Below are positions 23,802-45,843 of a DNA stretch of 64,000 nucleotides, in pieces. Origin of the DNA: Flagellimonas hadalis (GTDB lineage: Bacteria; Bacteroidota; Bacteroidia; Flavobacteriales; Flavobacteriaceae); NCBI RefSeq assembly GCF_007785775.2, contig NZ_VNIK02000011.1, positions 1 to 64,000 of the forward strand, read 5' to 3'. The notes under the pieces were generated by a model that worked only from the letters and a program-made list of their open reading frames with translations, did not search any database and had not been told where the DNA came from. The translations under genes were made by a program, and so were the position numbers. Position 1 is the first letter of the stretch. Each line of letters opens with the position of its first letter.

Positions 23802-26252
23802 TTATAGGGTCTTCGCATTTTTCACCTTCTGTCCCGTAATGGCAATGTCGATGACCTCGCTCATATCCGTGACATAATGGAAGGTGAGCCCTTTCAGATA
23901 TTCTTCCTTGATTTCCTCAATGTCCTTTCTATTGTCCTTGCACAGGATGATCTCATTGATCCTGGCCCTTTTTGCGGCCAAAATCTTTTCCTTGATCCCC
24001 CCAACGGGCAATACTTTGCCGCGAAGGGTGATCTCGCCGGTCATGGCAAGGCTCTTTTTTACCTTGCGTTGGGTAAAGAGCGACACCAAGGAGGTCAACA
24101 TCGTGATCCCTGCACTGGGTCCGTCCTTGGGTGTGGCACCCTCGGGCACGTGGATGTGCACATTATATCTATCGAACACATCGGGGTCGATACCAAAGGT
24201 ATCTGCGTTGGACTTGATGTATTCCATGGCTATGGTCGCGGATTCCTTCATCACTTTGCCCAAGTTCCCAGTGATGTTCAGCATCCCCTTTCCTTTGGAA
24301 AGAATGGATTCGATAAAAAGGATGTCGCCGCCCACACTGGTCCAGGCCAAGCCTGTGACCACACCGGCCACTTCATTGTTCTCGTACTTGTCGCGCTCCA
24401 ATCGGGCAGGCCCCAACACCTTTTCCACATCGGCATCGGATACTTTCACGCTGTACTCCTCCTCTATGGCGATGGATTTTGCGGCATAGCGCACCATTTT
24501 GGCCAATTGTTTCTCCAGGTTACGTACCCCGGACTCGCGGGTGTAGCCCTCCACTATCTTCTCCAATTGGCGTTTGCCGATTTTCAGGTCCTTGGCAGAA
24601 AGCCCATGTTCCTTCAATTGTTTGGGCAACAGGTGCCGCTTGGCAATCTCCACCTTCTCCTCTATGGTATATCCCGTCACATTGATGATTTCCATACGGT
24701 CCAGCAAAGCGGGTTGTATGCTGGACAGGTTATTCGCCGTGGCGATGAACATCACTTTGGAAAGGTCGTAGCCCATTTCCAGGAAATTGTCATGGAACTC
24801 CGCATTCTGTTCTGGGTCCAACACCTCCAACATGGCAGAGGAGGGATCGCCTTGATGGCTGTTCGACAATTTATCGATCTCGTCCAAGATGAAGACCGGG
24901 TTGGAAGTTCCAGCCTTCTTCAAACTTTGGATGATACGTCCCGGCATGGCCCCGATATAGGTTTTTCGATGACCACGTATCTCGGCCTCATCACGCAAGC
25001 CGCCCAATGACATGCGCACGTATTCCCTACCCAAGGCTTCTGCCACGGATTTGCCCAAAGAGGTCTTGCCCACACCCGGAGGTCCGTACAGACAAAGAAT
25101 GGGCGATTTCATATCGTTGCGGAGTTTCAACACGGCGAGGTATTCTATGATACGTCGCTTCACATCTTCCAGACCATAATGATCCCTGTCCAAGATCTGC
25201 TGTGCCCGTTTCAGGTCAAACTTGTCCTTGGAATATTCGTTCCAGGGCAGGTCGAGGATCAGATCTAGGTAATTCCGCTGAATGGAATACTCCGCCACTT
25301 GGGGGTTCATACGCTGCATTTTGGCCAGTTCCTTTTCAAAATGCTCCTGGACGTTCTTGTTCCATTTTTTCTTTTTGGCCTTTATGCGCATTTCCTCCAC
25401 CTCTTCTTCATAAGATAGGCCACCAAGTTCCTCTTGGATGGTCTTCATCTGTTGGTGCAGGAAGTACTCTCGTTGCTGCTGGTCCATATCGCTGCGCACC
25501 TTGCTCTGGATATCGTTGCGCAGTTCCAGTTTCTGAAGTTCCATGTTCATGTACTTCAAGGTGGCCAAGGCCCTTTCCTGAAGGTTCGGGATTTCCAGCA
25601 ACTGCTGCTTCTCCGCAACGCTCAGGTTCAGGTTGGAGGACACAAAGTTGATCAGGAACGAATTGCTCTGGATGTTCTTGATGGCAAAAGTGGCCTCACT
25701 GGGAATGTTGGGGTTGTCCTTGATGATCCTAAAGGCCAGTTCCTTGATGGAATCGATGATGGCCTCAAATTCCTTGCTTTTCTCATCGGGCCGTATCTCT
25801 TCGGCCTCCTTTACCTTGGCGGTCAAATAGGGTTTTTCGGTGACAATGCTCTCTATCTGGAACCTCTTTTTTCCTTGGATGATGACGGTGGTGTTGCCAT
25901 CCGGCATTTGGAGCACCCTTAGGATGCGGGCCACAGTACCCAAGGTATTGATATCGTTAACCCCTGGGTTTTCGGTCTGCTCGTCCTTTTGGGACACCAC
26001 ACCTATCGTTTTGGAGCCATTGTTGGCATCCTTGATCAGGTTGATGGACTTGTCCCTTCCCGCAGTAATCGGAATCACCACCCCTGGGAACAAAACGGTA
26101 TTTCGTAGGGGAAGCACGGGCAAGGTATCCGGCAGTTCCTCCTTGTTCATCTGTTCTTCATCCTCAGGGGTGAGCAGCGGAATCAATTCCGCATCCTCAT
26201 CCAATCCCTGAAGGTCAATATTGTCAAATCTTGATATTTTCATCTCTCCCAT
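23802..26252 (-). CDS. lon: ATP-dependent protease La (Lon)
   Basis: The 816-residue protein has the Lon N-terminal substrate domain (about 42-245) and a coiled-coil linker. The AAA+ module carries Walker A GPPGVGKT (390-397) and Walker B VFILDEID (453-460). The protease domain has catalytic Ser713 in DGPSAG and a lysine in GGIKEK (751-756), forming the Ser-Lys dyad. Lon degrades misfolded and regulatory proteins in the cytosol. The start may be the ATG at 26252 or the one at 26243, which a GGGAGAG precedes. No heat-shock operator was recognised. Confidence 0.97.
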
Positions 26253-26468
26253 CTCTTCTTTTCGGTCATTTTGTCATAATCGACAAAAATCCAACTTTTT
26301 TATTCAGTAACAAAGCTTCTGGAACACCTTATAAATCAATGGTTATGGTGAAATCGAAGCTTATGGCCACTCCTAAAAGGCAATTCCTGTGCCATTGGAA
26401 AATAAATTTTAAGAAAAAAGTGTAACAATTGGTAAATTCCCTAATCTATAAGACAAACCATTCATTTT

Positions 26469-27026
26469 TTGAGCCACCAAAATGAACATATTGATGCACT
26501 GCTCCAATTGTGCATGCAGGGAAAACAAAGTGCACAAATGGAGATCTACAATCGCTACTATAAGGCCATGTACAACACTGCCTATAGGATTGTAAAAGAT
26601 CCCGCCGAGGCGGAGGATGTGATGCAGGAATCGTTCCTGAGCGCATTCACCAAGATGCATACATTCAAAGGAGACGTCACCTTTGGGGCATGGCTGAAGC
26701 GGATCGTGATCAACAACAGCATCTATCAGTACAAAAAGCAGCAAAAAAACAGGACTGCGGATTTGGATGATATCATGTACAAGGTCGAAGATAATGATGG
26801 AGTTGCTTCAGACCAGAATGGTTATACTGAACTGAAGGCTCAAAAAGTGATGGAAACCATGAAAAGTTTGAAAGACAATTACAGAGTTTCTTTGACCTTA
26901 CATTTGATTGAAGGATACGATTACGAAGAAATCAGTGAAATAATGAACATTAGCTATGCTAATTGTAGGACCACGATCTCAAGGGCCAAAGAAAGTTTGA
27001 GAAAGAAGTTGACCGTAAATATGTAG
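26469..27026 (+). CDS. ECF-family RNA polymerase sigma factor
   Basis: The 185-residue protein has region 2 (MEIYNRYYKAMYNTAYR, then DVMQESFLSAF) and region 4 (YEEISEIMNISYANCR, then RAKESLRK). The reading frame and family alignment put the start at TTG (26469; SHQNEHIDALLQLC). No ATG fits upstream of region 2. It directs transcription of a small regulon. The next gene, three bases on, is a likely anti-sigma membrane protein, and two beta-helical exported proteins follow. Confidence 0.92.
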   Translation: MSHQNEHIDALLQLCMQGKQSAQMEIYNRYYKAMYNTAYRIVKDPAEAEDVMQESFLSAFTKMHTFKGDVTFGAWLKRIVINNSIYQYKKQQKNRTADLDDIMYKVEDNDGVASDQNGYTELKAQKVMETMKSLKDNYRVSLTLHLIEGYDYEEISEIMNISYANCRTTISRAKESLRKKLTVNM

Positions 27027-27029
27027 AAG

Positions 27030-27590
27030 ATGAGCAAGGATAGTTTAGACAATTTGTTTGGGAGGCTCCAAGGAGAGTTTGATGTAGAGGAGCCACAAAG
27101 TGGGCATCAAGAACGGTTTTTGGACAAACTGAACCGTGCCAAGGGTACGGTTTCCATCCACAGGAAGAAAAACTCATGGTGGAAGCCCCTCTCCATCGCT
27201 GCCTCCGTGACAGTGGTGGCCATACTGGGATATCAGGCCTTCGGGCCAACGCCCAGCATCAAACAACAGGTGGTGGAGATCGCTCCCGAAGCAGGCCGTA
27301 CAGAGTTTTACTTTGCCAACCTCATTGAACAGCAAGTGCAGCAGTTGAAGGACGAGAAATCACCCGAAACGGCACAGTTGGTCGATGATACCTTGTCCCA
27401 GTTGCAACGGTTGCAAAAAGATTACCGATCGCTGGAACAGGACTTGGTCAACGGTGGGGACAGCAAGATCATCATGAACGCCATGATCATCAATTTCCAG
27501 ACCCGCATTGACCTTTTAAGAGAAGTTTTGAGCCAAATAGAAAATATCAAGAATTTAAAATCACAAAATGATGAAAGCTTTACCATTTAA
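27030..27590 (+). CDS. Single-pass membrane protein, probable anti-sigma factor
   Basis: The 186-residue protein has a cytosolic-type N-terminus (about 1-48), one transmembrane segment (about 52-68) and a periplasmic helical, glutamine-rich part (about 85-175) likely to form a coiled coil. Size, topology and position just after an ECF sigma gene fit an anti-sigma factor. No zinc-binding HxxxCxxC motif is present, so the mechanism would differ from ZAS anti-sigmas. It overlaps the next gene by 23 bases. Confidence 0.7.
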   Translation: MSKDSLDNLFGRLQGEFDVEEPQSGHQERFLDKLNRAKGTVSIHRKKNSWWKPLSIAASVTVVAILGYQAFGPTPSIKQQVVEIAPEAGRTEFYFANLIEQQVQQLKDEKSPETAQLVDDTLSQLQRLQKDYRSLEQDLVNGGDSKIIMNAMIINFQTRIDLLREVLSQIENIKNLKSQNDESFTI

Positions 27591-28668
27591 AAAGATTCTT
27601 TTCACCTTGGCTTTGATTCCCATGGCCATAAGCGCACATGTGGACAATGACAACTTGAACGGCAGGTACACCAAGGAAAAGACCATTAAAAAGGAGTTCA
27701 ATGTCAATGCCGATGCACTTTTCAAAGTGGACAACAGCTATGGCAACCTCAACATTACCTCTTGGAACGAAAACCGGGTGGTGATAGAGGTCCAGATCAA
27801 GACCAACGGCAACAACGAGGAACGGGTACAGGAACGATTGGACGAGATCAACGTGGATTTTGAGAACAGTTCCAGCTTGGTTTCTGCCAGGACCCTTTTT
27901 GGCAACAGGAACAACAACTGGGGGTGGAGCTGGGGCAAGCGCAACAGTGTCAGCGTACAGGTGAACTACACCATCAAACTGCCCGTGAAGAACAACGTGA
28001 GCCTGAGCAACGATTATGGCAGCATTTTCTTGGACCGTATCGACGGACACGCCAAGATCAAGTGCGACTATGGCAAAATAGAAGTGGGCGAACTGCGCGG
28101 GAGAAACAATGAACTCCGATTCGATTACACCTCACGGTCCACTTTCGACTATATCAACAGTGCCGAGATCGTGGCCGATTATTCCGGGTTCACCATCGGA
28201 AAAGCGGGCAACCTGATCATCAAGGCCGATTATACCAATGCCGTGATCGAAGAAATGGAAAACCTCGAATATTCCTGCGATTACGGATCGTTAGAAGCAA
28301 AAAACGTGAAGAATGTTAGTGGTAATGGCGACTACATCGGGATAAAACTGGGTACCGTACATGGCAATGTGGGCATCTCCGGGGACTACGGTTCCTTGAA
28401 AATCGACCAAATGACCCCAGATGCGGGCAACATCCAAATACGGACAGATTATACCGGCATCAAAATAGGGTACCATCCGGAGTATTACTTTGACTTTGAG
28501 ATCACCACTGAATATGCCGACGTGAGCGGAAAGGATGATTTTGAGATCAACATCAGCAAGGAAAAATCAAGCGAGAAGTATTACAAAGGATACTACGGAC
28601 GGGAAAACTCCGGGAGGACAGTGAGCATCACCAGCGATTATGGAGGCATTACATTTTATCAAAACTAA
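27568..28668 (+). CDS. Exported DUF4097-like beta-helical adhesin-type protein
   Basis: The 366-residue protein starts with a signal peptide (about 1-23, ending ISA). It then has repeated short beta strands spaced about 18-22 residues, with recurring DYG and DYT turns such as LSNDYGSIFLD, CDYGKIEVG, CDYGSLEAK, SGDYGSLKI and TSDYGGITF. This is the pattern of DUF4097-type right-handed beta-helices. It likely sits in the periplasm or on the cell surface. Function is unknown. It belongs to the sigma/anti-sigma cassette and precedes a DUF2807 protein. Confidence 0.75.
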   Translation: MMKALPFKKILFTLALIPMAISAHVDNDNLNGRYTKEKTIKKEFNVNADALFKVDNSYGNLNITSWNENRVVIEVQIKTNGNNEERVQERLDEINVDFENSSSLVSARTLFGNRNNNWGWSWGKRNSVSVQVNYTIKLPVKNNVSLSNDYGSIFLDRIDGHAKIKCDYGKIEVGELRGRNNELRFDYTSRSTFDYINSAEIVADYSGFTIGKAGNLIIKADYTNAVIEEMENLEYSCDYGSLEAKNVKNVSGNGDYIGIKLGTVHGNVGISGDYGSLKIDQMTPDAGNIQIRTDYTGIKIGYHPEYYFDFEITTEYADVSGKDDFEINISKEKSSEKYYKGYYGRENSGRTVSITSDYGGITFYQN

Positions 28669-28704
28669 AACATCATATCAAAAAACCATTTTAAACACAA
28701 GATC

Positions 28705-29430
28705 ATGAAAAAAATCATCACACTCGCACTGGCATTGACCACCGTGGCCATCACCAACGCCCAATGGGGAAGAAAAGTAAAGGGGGACGGCAATGTGGTC
28801 ACCATCGAACGCTCCGTAGGGGACTATGACGGTGTATCACTCGCTGGTTGGTTCGATGTGGACCTTGTGGCGGGCAACGAAGGGGAGATCACCCTGAAAG
28901 GGGAATCCAATCTTTTGGAGCACATCATAACCGAGATCAAGAACGGGGTTTTGGTCATCAAGACCGAAAAAGGCGTGGAACTGAAACCTTCCAATTGGAA
29001 TTCAGGGATCCTGATCACCGTTCCTGTGGAGTCCATCAGTTCCGTGAGTCTATCAGGTTCTGGCGACATCGTGGGCAAGACCACCATCGAAGCTGAAAGT
29101 TTCAGTACTCGGATTGCCGGGTCTGGCGACATCAGCGTAACAGTCCAGGCAAAAGAGGTCGAGGCTTCGCTCTTTGGTTCGGGTGACATCAACCTATCCG
29201 GAAGGACCACGGATTTTGATGTAATGGTATCCGGTTCCGGTGACATCAAGGCGTATGAACTGGAAGCAGAATTTGTGAAAGCCACCGTTTCCGGTTCGGC
29301 CGATATCAAGGTTACTGCAAATCAGTCCATCGATGCCAAGGTTTCTGGATCGGGGGACATCCATTACCGCGGAAACCCTAAAAAAATCAATTCAAAATCA
29401 TCAGGCTCCGGGGATATCTCCAGAGGATAA
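28705..29430 (+). CDS. Exported head-GIN / DUF2807 domain protein
   Basis: The 241-residue protein has a signal peptide (MKKIITLALALTTVAITNAQ). Its DUF2807 beta-helix has the motif GSGDI recurring seven times (one GSADI) at roughly 20-residue intervals from about residue 114 to the end. Such GIN-domain proteins are common, uncharacterised, exported proteins of Bacteroidetes. It is probably the last gene of the ECF sigma cassette, since a strong terminator follows at 29456-29492. Confidence 0.88.
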   Translation: MKKIITLALALTTVAITNAQWGRKVKGDGNVVTIERSVGDYDGVSLAGWFDVDLVAGNEGEITLKGESNLLEHIITEIKNGVLVIKTEKGVELKPSNWNSGILITVPVESISSVSLSGSGDIVGKTTIEAESFSTRIAGSGDISVTVQAKEVEASLFGSGDINLSGRTTDFDVMVSGSGDIKAYELEAEFVKATVSGSADIKVTANQSIDAKVSGSGDIHYRGNPKKINSKSSGSGDISRG

Positions 29431-29455
29431 CAGGAGTTTACCACCAATCAAAAAA

Positions 29456-29492
29456 GCAAAAAGGTCTTGACGAACAGTCAGGACCTTTTTGC
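29456..29492. terminator. Bidirectional intrinsic terminator
   Basis: A 16-base stem (GCAAAAAGGTCTTGAC / GTCAGGACCTTTTTGC, one G-T pair) with a five-base loop separates the DUF2807 gene (+) from the MFS gene (-). It has T-rich sides in both directions. Confidence 0.9.
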
Positions 29493-29493
29493 T

Positions 29494-30825
29494 TCAGGTT
29501 GTTTTCCTTTCCTTGTTGACCCGCATCAACAAAAGGATGCCCACCACAAAGAAAAGCCCCAAAAAGATGGTACTGTTACGCATGCTACCGGTAAGTTGTG
29601 CAACGATGCCATATAGGAAAGTACCGATGATGATACCTATTTTTTCGGCCACGTCATAAAAGCTAAAAAACGATGTGGTGTCCGTGGTCTCTGGCAAAAA
29701 TTTGGAATAGGTGGAGCGGGAAAGTGCCTGGATGCCCCCCATAACGATCCCGACCAGACCGGCAGCGATGTAAAAGTCCATGGGTGTCTGCAAGAAATAG
29801 GCATACACGCACAGTAAGGCCCAAACAATATTGATGAACACCAAAGTCCTGATGTTTCCATAGGCCTTTGAGGCCCATGCAGTGGCCGTGGCCCCGAGAA
29901 TGGCCACAAGCTGTATCACCAAAATACTGGTAATGAGACCCGTAGTTCGTTCATTATCAGTTCCCCAAGCAATTTCTTCCTCCCCAAAATAGGTGGCGAT
30001 GAGCATGATGGTCTGTACTCCCATGCTATACACAAAAAAGGCGCCTAAATAGCGTTTCAGACGTGTATTCTCCCCCAATTGGTGCCAAACGCCCTTCAAT
30101 TCCCGAAACCCATTGAGAATGATGTGCTGCCGCTCCCCTTCCCTTTTATAGCCTTTGGGCAAATGTGCAAATGTATATTGGCTAAAGACGATCCACCAAA
30201 TCCCTACGGAAATGAAGGAATATTTCATGGCCTTTATCTCGGCAATCTCTCCACCGCCGTCCGTTATCCCAAAAAGACCTGGTTTCATCACCATGATCAG
30301 ATTGAAGACCAGCAATATCACACTCCCGATGTATCCCAAAGAGAAGCCCTTCGCACTGATGCGATCCTGCTGTTCCGGGTAGGCAATGTCCGGCAAATAC
30401 GAGTTGTTGATGGCAAAACTGACCCAAAACCCTACCAGACCGAAAAAATAGCACACCAATCCAAAAAAGATGTTCTCCAAGGAAAACCAGTAGAGTCCAA
30501 TACAGGAGAGCGCACCCAAATAGCAAAAAAACTTAAGGAACATTCTCTTGTTCCCCATATAGTCCGCAATGCCCGAAATCAATGGGGTGACGATGGCGAT
30601 GAACACAAAGGCCAATGAGGTGACATAACTGATCAAGGGCGCCCGGGCAATCTCTCCCCCGAAGATGGTGACTTTCTCTATCCCGGCAGTACGGAACAGC
30701 AACCCATAGAAAAGTGGGAAAACAGCGGAGGATATCACCAAGCTGTACACCGAGTTGGCCCAATCGTAAAACGCCCAGGCATTCAACAGTTTTTTGCTTC
30801 CCTTCAATGCCAGTACCTGTTCCAT
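29494..30825 (-). CDS. MFS transporter, UMF1 (Atg22-like) family
   Basis: The 443-residue protein has about 12 hydrophobic segments and opens with the UMF1 signature (NAWAFYDWANSVYSLVI). The usual MFS loop between segments 2 and 3 (DYMGNKRMFLK) is present, as is GGIQALSRSTYSKFLPE, typical of UMF1 members. These sit in the inner membrane. Eukaryotic Atg22 relatives export amino acids from the vacuole, but the bacterial substrate is unknown. It is transcribed alone from a promoter at about 30854-30881. Confidence 0.9.
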   Translation of the reverse strand: MEQVLALKGSKKLLNAWAFYDWANSVYSLVISSAVFPLFYGLLFRTAGIEKVTIFGGEIARAPLISYVTSLAFVFIAIVTPLISGIADYMGNKRMFLKFFCYLGALSCIGLYWFSLENIFFGLVCYFFGLVGFWVSFAINNSYLPDIAYPEQQDRISAKGFSLGYIGSVILLVFNLIMVMKPGLFGITDGGGEIAEIKAMKYSFISVGIWWIVFSQYTFAHLPKGYKREGERQHIILNGFRELKGVWHQLGENTRLKRYLGAFFVYSMGVQTIMLIATYFGEEEIAWGTDNERTTGLITSILVIQLVAILGATATAWASKAYGNIRTLVFINIVWALLCVYAYFLQTPMDFYIAAGLVGIVMGGIQALSRSTYSKFLPETTDTTSFFSFYDVAEKIGIIIGTFLYGIVAQLTGSMRNSTIFLGLFFVVGILLLMRVNKERKTT

Positions 30826-44515: not shown

Positions 44516-44548
44516 AAAAACAGGGCATATCATTTTGGTCCTGTTTTT
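44516..44548. repeat. Inverted repeat in the NDH-2/ECF sigma divergent region
   Basis: A 9-base perfect inverted repeat (AAAAACAGG at 44516-44524, CCTGTTTTT at 44540-44548) with a 15-base spacer lies between the two divergent genes. No gene ends here, so a terminator is unlikely. A binding site or leader hairpin is possible. Confidence 0.45.
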
Positions 44549-44700
44549 TGATATCTTTAGTGCCTGATCTAAAAACTCCAAAACTAAGGATAACTGGACA
44601 ATGGATACCCTGTTCTGGAATACCTGAAATGGTTTTTTTGGGGACAGATCGTAACAAAAACTACTTTTCATATACCAATAGGGCAAACTTACCAACCTTA

Positions 44701-45195
44701 GTGAACAAAGAACTGGAACATCGTTTTGTGACGGAGCTTGAGAACAATCAGAACATTGTTCATAAGGTGTGCAGCCTATATACCAACGACAAGGACTCAC
44801 ACAACGATCTCTTTCAGGAGATCACGATCCAACTGTGGAAGGCCTATCCAAAGTTTCGCGGAGACGCCAAGTTCAGCACATGGATGTACCGGGTCGCCTT
44901 GAACACTGCCATTACATTGTACAGGAAATCCAAGAAAAGGGTGCAGACCCAAGACTATGATTCTGTCGTACATAAGATAAAGGCCAGCGACTATGATGAC
45001 ACAGAGGAAAAGCAATTGAAACTGATGTACGATGCGGTGCGGCAGTTGGGCGATATTGACAAGGCATTGGTATTTCTTTATCTGGAGGACAAGGATTATT
45101 CGGAAATAGCCGAAACATTGGGTATCACTGAGGTAAATGCAAGGGTAAAAATGAACAGGGTGAAAAATAAATTAAGGACCATATTAAATCCGTAG
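44701..45195 (+). CDS. ECF-family RNA polymerase sigma factor
   Basis: Region 2 (SLYTNDKDSHNDLFQEITIQ) and region 4 (YSEIAETLGITEVNARVKMN) define the ECF group. I set the start at GTG 44701 (VNKELEHRFVTELE, 164 residues); upstream in-frame ATGs at 44548 and 44629 give no homologous sequence. It is followed three bases on by a multi-pass membrane protein gene rather than a recognisable anti-sigma factor, and the pair is probably co-transcribed. Confidence 0.88.
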   Translation: MNKELEHRFVTELENNQNIVHKVCSLYTNDKDSHNDLFQEITIQLWKAYPKFRGDAKFSTWMYRVALNTAITLYRKSKKRVQTQDYDSVVHKIKASDYDDTEEKQLKLMYDAVRQLGDIDKALVFLYLEDKDYSEIAETLGITEVNARVKMNRVKNKLRTILNP

Positions 45196-45198
45196 ATC

Positions 45199-45843
45199 AT
45201 GGTGGATGAACTGGAGCTCTTGAAAAAAGACTGGCAAAAAAGGGAAGCCGACCTTCCCAAATTGTCGTATGACCAAATCTATGGAATGACCTGGAAAAAA
45301 TCGTCCTCCATAGTCAAATGGATATTTTATATCAGTCTCATTGAACTGGTATTTTGGGCGGCGATCAACATCATCTTCAGTGATTCCGAAACCATGGAAG
45401 AACTGAAGGCCCTCCACATTCACAAAGTGATCATGGTGCTCAACATCGTCAACTATGGCATCATCCTGTACTTCATCTATAAATTCTATATCAATTACAG
45501 AAAAATATCCTTTACCGATTCTTCCAGAAAATTGATGAAGGCCATCCTCAAAGTGAAAAGAACGGTGACCCAATACGTCTGGTTCAACCTGATCATCTTC
45601 ACCACCTACCTCATCATCAACATGTATGGGGTATTGCTGTATGCCCCTGAGGGCCAAAAAATTGTGCAGGCCGCTTCGGAAGATGGCAACAGTTTTTCAT
45701 TTTGGGCGATGGTGATCACCATTTCAGTGATCTTTACCGCCCTTGTGCTGTTACTGATATGGCTGTTCTACAAATTACTCTATGGAATTCTGCTGAAAAG
45801 ACTTCGGGAAAACTACAATGAATTGAAGAAGCTGGAGGTTTAA
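45199..45843 (+). CDS. Four-pass membrane protein linked to the ECF sigma gene
   Basis: The 214-residue protein starts with a charged helix (MVDELELLKKDWQKRE) and has about four hydrophobic segments (near 40-58, 78-95, 127-147, 170-195). It ends with a charged helix. I recognise no family motif. Position three bases after the sigma gene suggests a regulator or target, for example an unusual anti-sigma; this is inference. The 3' end overlaps the convergent acyltransferase by four bases. Confidence 0.75.
   Translation: MVDELELLKKDWQKREADLPKLSYDQIYGMTWKKSSSIVKWIFYISLIELVFWAAINIIFSDSETMEELKALHIHKVIMVLNIVNYGIILYFIYKFYINYRKISFTDSSRKLMKAILKVKRTVTQYVWFNLIIFTTYLIINMYGVLLYAPEGQKIVQAASEDGNSFSFWAMVITISVIFTALVLLLIWLFYKLLYGILLKRLRENYNELKKLEV

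Follow-up and report, generated by a model that had tools for sequence, protein, structure and literature searches.

Four successive genes of Flagellimonas hadalis raise the question of what restrains an extracytoplasmic function (ECF) sigma factor whose neighbor is a membrane protein without a zinc motif, and which genes such a factor controls. The genes lie at positions 26,469 to 29,430 of a 64,000-nt stretch of DNA (positions 1 to 64,000 of contig NZ_VNIK02000011.1, assembly GCF_007785775.2), hereafter the window. In Bacteroidota, ECF sigma factors are numerous, yet few have a recognized anti-sigma neighbor. Our analysis suggests, with a probability of about 0.8, that the four genes form an autoregulated ECF sigma/anti-sigma operon for envelope stress, with two Toastrack-fold proteins as outputs and a regulon extending beyond the operon. 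The open reading frames (ORFs) were confirmed where the original prediction, made from the sequence alone, had placed them. The features are as follows:

26469–27026, + strand: ECF sigma factor, TTG start, 185 amino acids (aa); Pfam Sigma70_r2 (E 1.3e-15) and Sigma70_r4_2 (E 5.4e-13)
27030–27590, + strand: membrane partner, probable anti-sigma factor; no Pfam family
27568–28668, + strand: DYG-ladder beta-helix (Toastrack-fold) protein, exported, 366 aa; modelled fold and Protein Data Bank (PDB) matches
28705–29430, + strand: DUF2807 (head GIN) protein, exported, with a GSGDI ladder, 241 aa; PF10988, E 2.4e-54
26421–26450, + strand: predicted autoregulatory ECF promoter; −35 box TGTAACA at 26421–26427, 16-bp spacer, −10 box ATCTATA at 26444–26450
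29454–29494, no strand assigned: terminator-like hairpin with an 18-pair stem, between the operon and a convergent transporter gene

Gene order and the promoter ahead of the sigma gene

Gene order was compared in 79 loci of the family, picked among the best matches to the DYG protein. The sigma, partner, and DYG genes are co-directional and consecutive in all 79, with the partner always the next gene after sigma, and the DUF2807 gene comes next in 77; the predicted conserved linkage of the cassette is thus borne out. The start of the DYG gene overlaps the 3′ end of the partner gene by 23 bp in the window, and the two genes overlap in 69 of the 79 loci, where 23 bp is also the commonest length. 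On the upstream side of the sigma gene lies the divergent lon gene. Eighty named loci, the nearest of which are from Allomuricauda/Flagellimonas (Flavobacteriaceae) with 95 to 97% identity in the DYG protein, contain sigma in 79 cases, the partner and the DYG gene in 80 each, DUF2807 in 78, lon in 72, and the transporter gene in 71; where genes are missing, some contigs end early. The two sets share species, and at least eight loci have identical DYG proteins. A match to the DYG protein was found in 36 of 36 genomes of the genus and in 40 of 59 classed as “relatives.” Across the family, 247 of 299 genomes have a match to it and 259 of 299 to the partner, counts that include weak matches, some of them to paralogs. 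At 20 deeper loci, the majority of them in other families of the same class, sigma, partner, and DYG genes are consecutive in 15 (the others are L353, L356, L357, L360, and L361).

The sigma protein consists of regions σ2 and σ4 only. Its TTG start, already part of the original prediction, is supported because TTG occupies the aligned position in 77 of the 79 relatives (GTG in the other two). The later genes start with ATG in 59 of 79 (partner), 74 of 79 (DYG), and 69 of 77 (DUF2807) cases, according to first-start ORF calls.

Upstream of sigma, the sequence is mostly variable across relatives, except for a near-invariant motif just ahead of the start codon, TGTAACA-N16-ATCTWTA. Of the 80 upstream regions, from the window and 79 loci, all contain TGTAACA, 79 fit a loose two-box pattern, and 60 fit the strict one; the spacer from TGTAACA to [AC]TC..T measures 16 bp in 77. 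The motif is also carried by Flavobacterium-type and other loci, and by the named loci L231 and L235. It is predicted to be a self-regulated promoter of the ECF type, from which the leader to the TTG would span roughly a dozen bases. Reading the region as a primary-sigma promoter (TAnnTTTG) was rejected by eye, since a conserved TA is missing from the position where it would be needed. On the opposite strand, a sigma-54–type site (TGGCAC-N5-TTGC, 26380–26394, − strand) faces lon (23802–26252), and a relaxed form of it occurs in 58 of the 80 upstream regions; with the ECF motif on the + strand, this places two alternative-sigma promoters back to back between lon and sigma. The lon gene of Flavobacterium psychrophilum is listed under a sigma-54 promoter (PMC9723704).

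At the other end, the four genes had been said to stop at a single strong terminator. The 29454–29494 hairpin is there and has the longest stem among those listed, but the region shows no overall enrichment of terminator-like sites (6 found versus 8.9 expected in shuffles). Since its arms carry A- and T-runs, it may act in both directions.

The membrane partner and the two exported proteins

The partner has a single hydrophobic segment, as read by eye. A cytosolic N terminus (residues ~1 to 50) is followed by this transmembrane segment and by a periplasmic helical part (~77 to 184). The earlier description of the partner as zinc-free stands: The window protein has no cysteine, and neither HxxxCxxC nor CxxC occurs in any of the 79 relatives, 52 of which lack cysteine entirely while 27 have one or more. 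No Pfam family matched the partner, and its N-terminal part gave only scattered weak Pfam matches (DUF3379 in 2 of 33 members). Ahead of the membrane segment, relatives conserve the pattern F.....FD.E.P..GH..RF..KL. In the AlphaFold model, the protein is helical from residue 77 on, with pLDDT mostly 75 to 93; Foldseek returned no matches for this model at E ≤ 0.001. Names of helical-bundle folds were dropped as candidates, since the best hits of the structural aligner were FAK FAT domains at Z ~10, a value common for helical bundles.

A profile of the partner matched in 50 of 296 genomes of the phylum. At 20 places, the match was mainly to the N-terminal part, and in 19 of them (the exception is L341) an ECF sigma gene lies directly upstream on the same strand. 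The proteins encoded there range from 144 to 534 aa and differ in their outer parts; they include outer-membrane barrel proteins (L332, L336, and L330) and a classical FecR anti-sigma regulator (L322). Because the full profile contains the membrane segment, a second model was rebuilt from the first ~45 residues of the partner and compared with 897 ORFs of 145 loci. Apart from the partner itself and its copy in L144, all matches up to E 0.5 are encoded directly after ECF sigma genes (L334, L323 and its copy L400, L337, L332, L330, L325, L326, L329, and L328). Their E values include 2e-5 for L334, 0.0099 for L332, and 0.017 for L330; these three have the architecture of Dma anti-sigma factors, and in the last two Pfam recognizes outer-membrane barrels. 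The partner is therefore a probable anti-sigma factor, and the best evidence for this is the N-terminal part that it appears to share with Dma-architecture proteins encoded after ECF sigma genes.

The two downstream proteins had been predicted to be beta-helices of paralogous type, and the structural comparison agrees. The DYG protein contains nine DY[GST] repeats and the DUF2807 protein seven GS[GA]DI repeats. The model of the former (mean pLDDT 89.4) matches 4qrk, a DUF4097-type structure (E 2.5e-8), as well as 3lyc, 3ljy, 4opw, and 3pet, which are “putative adhesin” structures; against 3lyc, Z is 18.5 with a root mean square deviation of 2.6 over 221 aligned residues. Solved relatives of the DUF2807 protein are 3jx8, 3lyc, 3pet, 3ljy, and 4opw. 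Both proteins thus belong, by PF10988 in one case and by the modelled fold in the other, to the Toastrack family of single-stranded beta-helices. The DUF4097 likeness claimed for the DYG protein holds at the level of fold but not of sequence, since none of the Pfam and NCBIfam families, DUF4097 included, scored above cut-off. In the window, the N termini of both proteins resemble ordinary Sec signal peptides, and neither has a lipobox cysteine; lipobox-like starts occur in none of the 79 DYG relatives and in 16 of the 77 DUF2807 relatives. No sorting or barrel domain was reported by Pfam or NCBIfam for either window protein. The simplest guess is that both are most likely periplasmic, and the surface location of the original prediction finds no support in these features.

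Sites outside the operon and paralogous cassettes

The strict motif has three matches in the F. hadalis genome (none for the reversed-pattern control) and 78 in 40 genomes of the genus (4 for the pattern read backward). A broader pattern (TGTAACAN{15,18}TCHWT) was dropped, as its 12 matches in the own genome compare with 21 in the control. By position, 37 of the 78 sites were assigned to cassettes as promoters (34 of them in the 36 genomes for which coordinates were available, 3 by sequence likeness). The other 41, including one at C8 of the own genome, were all inspected. Ten of the 41 precede one orthologous, unlinked gene for an exported DUF2807 protein of ~224 aa (G000:C23:46644–47315 in F. 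hadalis). Four lie before the gene of a hydrolase-TPR protein, two before that of a 169-aa membrane protein, which looks DoxX-like, and two before that of a cupin/AraC-like protein identified by eye.

In the reverse direction, the unlinked DUF2807 gene was located by tblastn, and its 30 best loci, one from each of 30 genera, were searched for the motif. It was present within 150 bp upstream in 27 of the 30 (21 for a stricter form), compared to 25 of 20,000 random 150-bp control windows from the same loci; of the exceptions, L289 has a one-base variant, while L297 and L299 have no motif. The gene of the secreted hydrolase-TPR protein carries the TGTAACA motif at a near-constant upstream distance in 11 of 20 loci of the genus (L362 to L381). 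As a target it looks lineage-limited, with a promoter signal that has perhaps come and gone within the genus. Since the same motif precedes unlinked genes, above all the second DUF2807 gene, the cassette is not the self-contained module that had been proposed. Other parts of that proposal are supported in silico, namely a sigma factor with a zinc-free anti-sigma–like partner, two beta-helices of one fold family, and conserved linkage.

The same genome contains two further cassettes, both with TGCAAC-type motifs. One (L060, G000:C1:419000–428500) encodes a sigma factor, a partner, a DYG-like protein, a protein that looks outer-membrane–like by eye, and a DUF2807 protein. Three TGCAACC-N16-TGTCTWT sites were found there (none expected), ahead of sigma, of the outer-membrane–like ORF, and of a divergent gene whose product resembles a TonB receptor by eye. 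The other (L323, G000:C56:54000–60500) consists of genes for a sigma factor, a partner, and a 479-aa DYG-like protein behind a single TGCAACG site. Genome-wide, the TGCAACS pattern has 10 matches versus 4 in the control; 4 of the 10 lie at these two cassettes, and the rest are taken as chance.

A TGCAAC-type motif also precedes sigma in 13 of the 17 deeper loci tested. In the sigma tree, the window sigma groups with flavobacterial ones (support 100/100), and the sigma factors of cassettes at class level fall near it with weaker support. When 92 sigma factors of TGTAACA type were compared with 15 of TGCAAC type, ten positions separated the groups. Among them are residues 164 to 166, which should lie in the recognition helix: They read ANC in the TGTAACA type and mostly N/S-T-S in the TGCAAC type. 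A parallel change of motif and residues is expected if the sigma factor reads its own promoter, but shared descent could also produce parallel differences in the −35 box and at these positions.

Alternative explanations and known systems

Under the preferred reading, the N terminus of the partner would retain the sigma factor at the inner membrane in quiet cells, and a disturbance of the envelope acting on the periplasmic helical part would release it. Once free, the factor would act at TGTAACA-N16-ATCTWTA promoters, as their conservation predicts. Its targets would be the operon itself and the unlinked gene for the exported DUF2807 protein, joined in some members of the genus by the secreted hydrolase gene. 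Once exported, most likely to the periplasm, the beta-helix proteins might shield damaged envelope material, sort it, or return the partner to its resting state. The TTG start and the short leader could keep the sigma factor scarce relative to its brake.

A number of observations weigh against this reading. Sampling from the best matches favors conservation, and in 4 of 77 loci the DYG and DUF2807 genes are more than 700 bp apart. The synteny also takes in lon upstream and the transporter gene downstream, so that linkage by itself is not sufficient proof of function. About a dozen of the 41 non-cassette sites lie inside other genes, and at 9 of the 20 genus loci there is no motif ahead of the hydrolase gene. 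As for the partner, the 20 loci with N-terminal matches were found with its own profile and not by adjacency to sigma; some of these matches rest largely on the juxtamembrane segment, since a FecR and a protein with HEAT repeats (L340) are among them. Its N terminus is mostly modelled below pLDDT 50, and a profile of this part reached no solved anti-sigma factor in the PDB.

The partner could instead be a structural envelope protein or a signal chaperone that is co-expressed with sigma, as its cytosolic part is short, modelled without confidence, and matches no known anti-sigma domain. We regard this as very unlikely: The N-terminal part recurs with quite different outer parts, Dma-like architecture among them, and 19 of the 20 loci place it beside an ECF sigma gene. 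The evidence for the promoter is conservation, so the motif might be the site of another sigma factor or a DNA-binding protein, with the sigma gene merely a target; the genome does have other ECF sigma factors, several of them with TGCAAC-type motifs. Yet two boxes at a fixed 16-bp spacing resemble a promoter, and TGCAAC-type motifs stand before the orthologous sigma gene at 13 of 17 deeper loci while residues 164 to 166 shift in parallel. Even with shared descent as a possible cause of this shift, another regulator seems quite unlikely. It is also unlikely, if a little less so, that the beta-helix proteins are surface adhesins and that the circuit governs attachment instead of stress. Pfam titles PF10988 “putative auto-transporter adhesin,” and a DUF2807 mutant of P. 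gingivalis is described as lacking biofilm and cell attachment (PMC10949514). An autotransporter adhesin, however, has its own beta-barrel translocator; the window proteins have no reported barrel family or type IX sorting domain and no lipobox, and the family is near-universal in free-living relatives, as far as matches in 247 of 299 genomes, weak paralogous ones counted, can indicate.

The autoregulated operon favored here has several known counterparts. In Bacteroides, Dma anti-sigma factors are reported to control their sigma factor (PMC13088901), and a similar pair is described in Phocaeicola (PMC9308784). In the Das/Dma pairs (Dma1, Dma2, and the identically built pairs of B. fragilis and Phocaeicola), as proposed for the genes described here, an ECF sigma factor is followed by a membrane anti-sigma factor that has a single transmembrane helix and binds sigma through a short N-terminal part. 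The likeness was drawn through Dma-architecture proteins reached by the N-terminal model. Dma, as described there, continues into a disordered tether and a C-terminal outer-membrane beta-barrel, whereas the partner has a periplasmic helical part and no barrel family; neighbors listed for the dma2 operon are DUF4858/DUF4943 proteins, and no Toastrack genes are described for it, in contrast to the present cassette.

The Toastrack proteins of PSP/Lia systems (DUF4097, DUF2154, and DUF2807) share the fold family of both exported proteins. Toastrack operons, some with a linked sigma factor, have been proposed as routes for envelope-stress signals (PMC11237479). The same paper predicts the Toastrack to be intracellular, whereas both proteins here have signal-peptide–like N termini, and none of the four cassette proteins matched PspA, PspC, LiaI, or LiaF in Pfam.

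Class I anti-sigma factors (ASDIs, of the RseA, RskA, and ChrR type) carry the HxxxCxxC zinc motif in only about half of cases, and an ASDI is encoded next to no more than 6% of Bacteroidetes ECFs (PMC7406223). Their layout, an N-terminal cytosolic sigma-binding part, a transmembrane helix, and a periplasmic sensor, is what we infer for the partner, which, however, lacks the zinc motif and any match to a known anti-sigma domain. Where a four-helix anti-sigma domain would lie, its N terminus is modelled below pLDDT 50, and a profile of this part reached no PDB anti-sigma factor. The nickel-sensing pair CnrY/CnrX likewise combines a very short, zinc-free anti-sigma tail with a periplasmic helical sensor, as two proteins where the partner is one; structure searches with the partner model gave no match to CnrX.

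Literature searches, which covered listings, abstracts, and passages but not most subscription papers, yielded no description of the operon. While the kind of system is known, this cassette is widespread, and it provides a common flavobacterial sigma factor with a likely brake, a promoter motif, and a short list of targets. Toastrack/DUF2807 proteins lack an agreed role, and the cassette makes both this role and the anti-sigma question directly testable. Parallel cassettes with different promoter boxes in one genome are a natural case of insulated signaling circuits. A broader picture is possible, though we put it forward tentatively and consider it doubtful as a whole. The N terminus of the partner could be a zinc-free anti-sigma module found across Bacteroidota and joined to interchangeable outer sensors, such as a helical hairpin or an outer-membrane barrel; Dma would be one branch among several. 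In the branch described here, Toastrack proteins could be more than outputs: as ligands in the periplasm, they would bind the helical sensor and thereby fix the threshold of the circuit. Paralogous cassettes in one cell could be insulated from each other by −35 boxes (TGTAACA versus TGCAACC/G) and recognition-helix residues 164 to 166 that have changed in parallel.

Two other loci with ECF sigma genes were noticed. In another family of the order, locus L338 (~588–2586, − strand) encodes in succession an ECF sigma factor, a 221-aa partner-like protein, and a 423-aa protein matching the DUF2807 profile. The window itself contains, at 44548–45843, one more ECF sigma gene, unrelated to the first, and after it a gene whose 214-aa product has several hydrophobic segments; the two may be a further sigma/anti-sigma pair.

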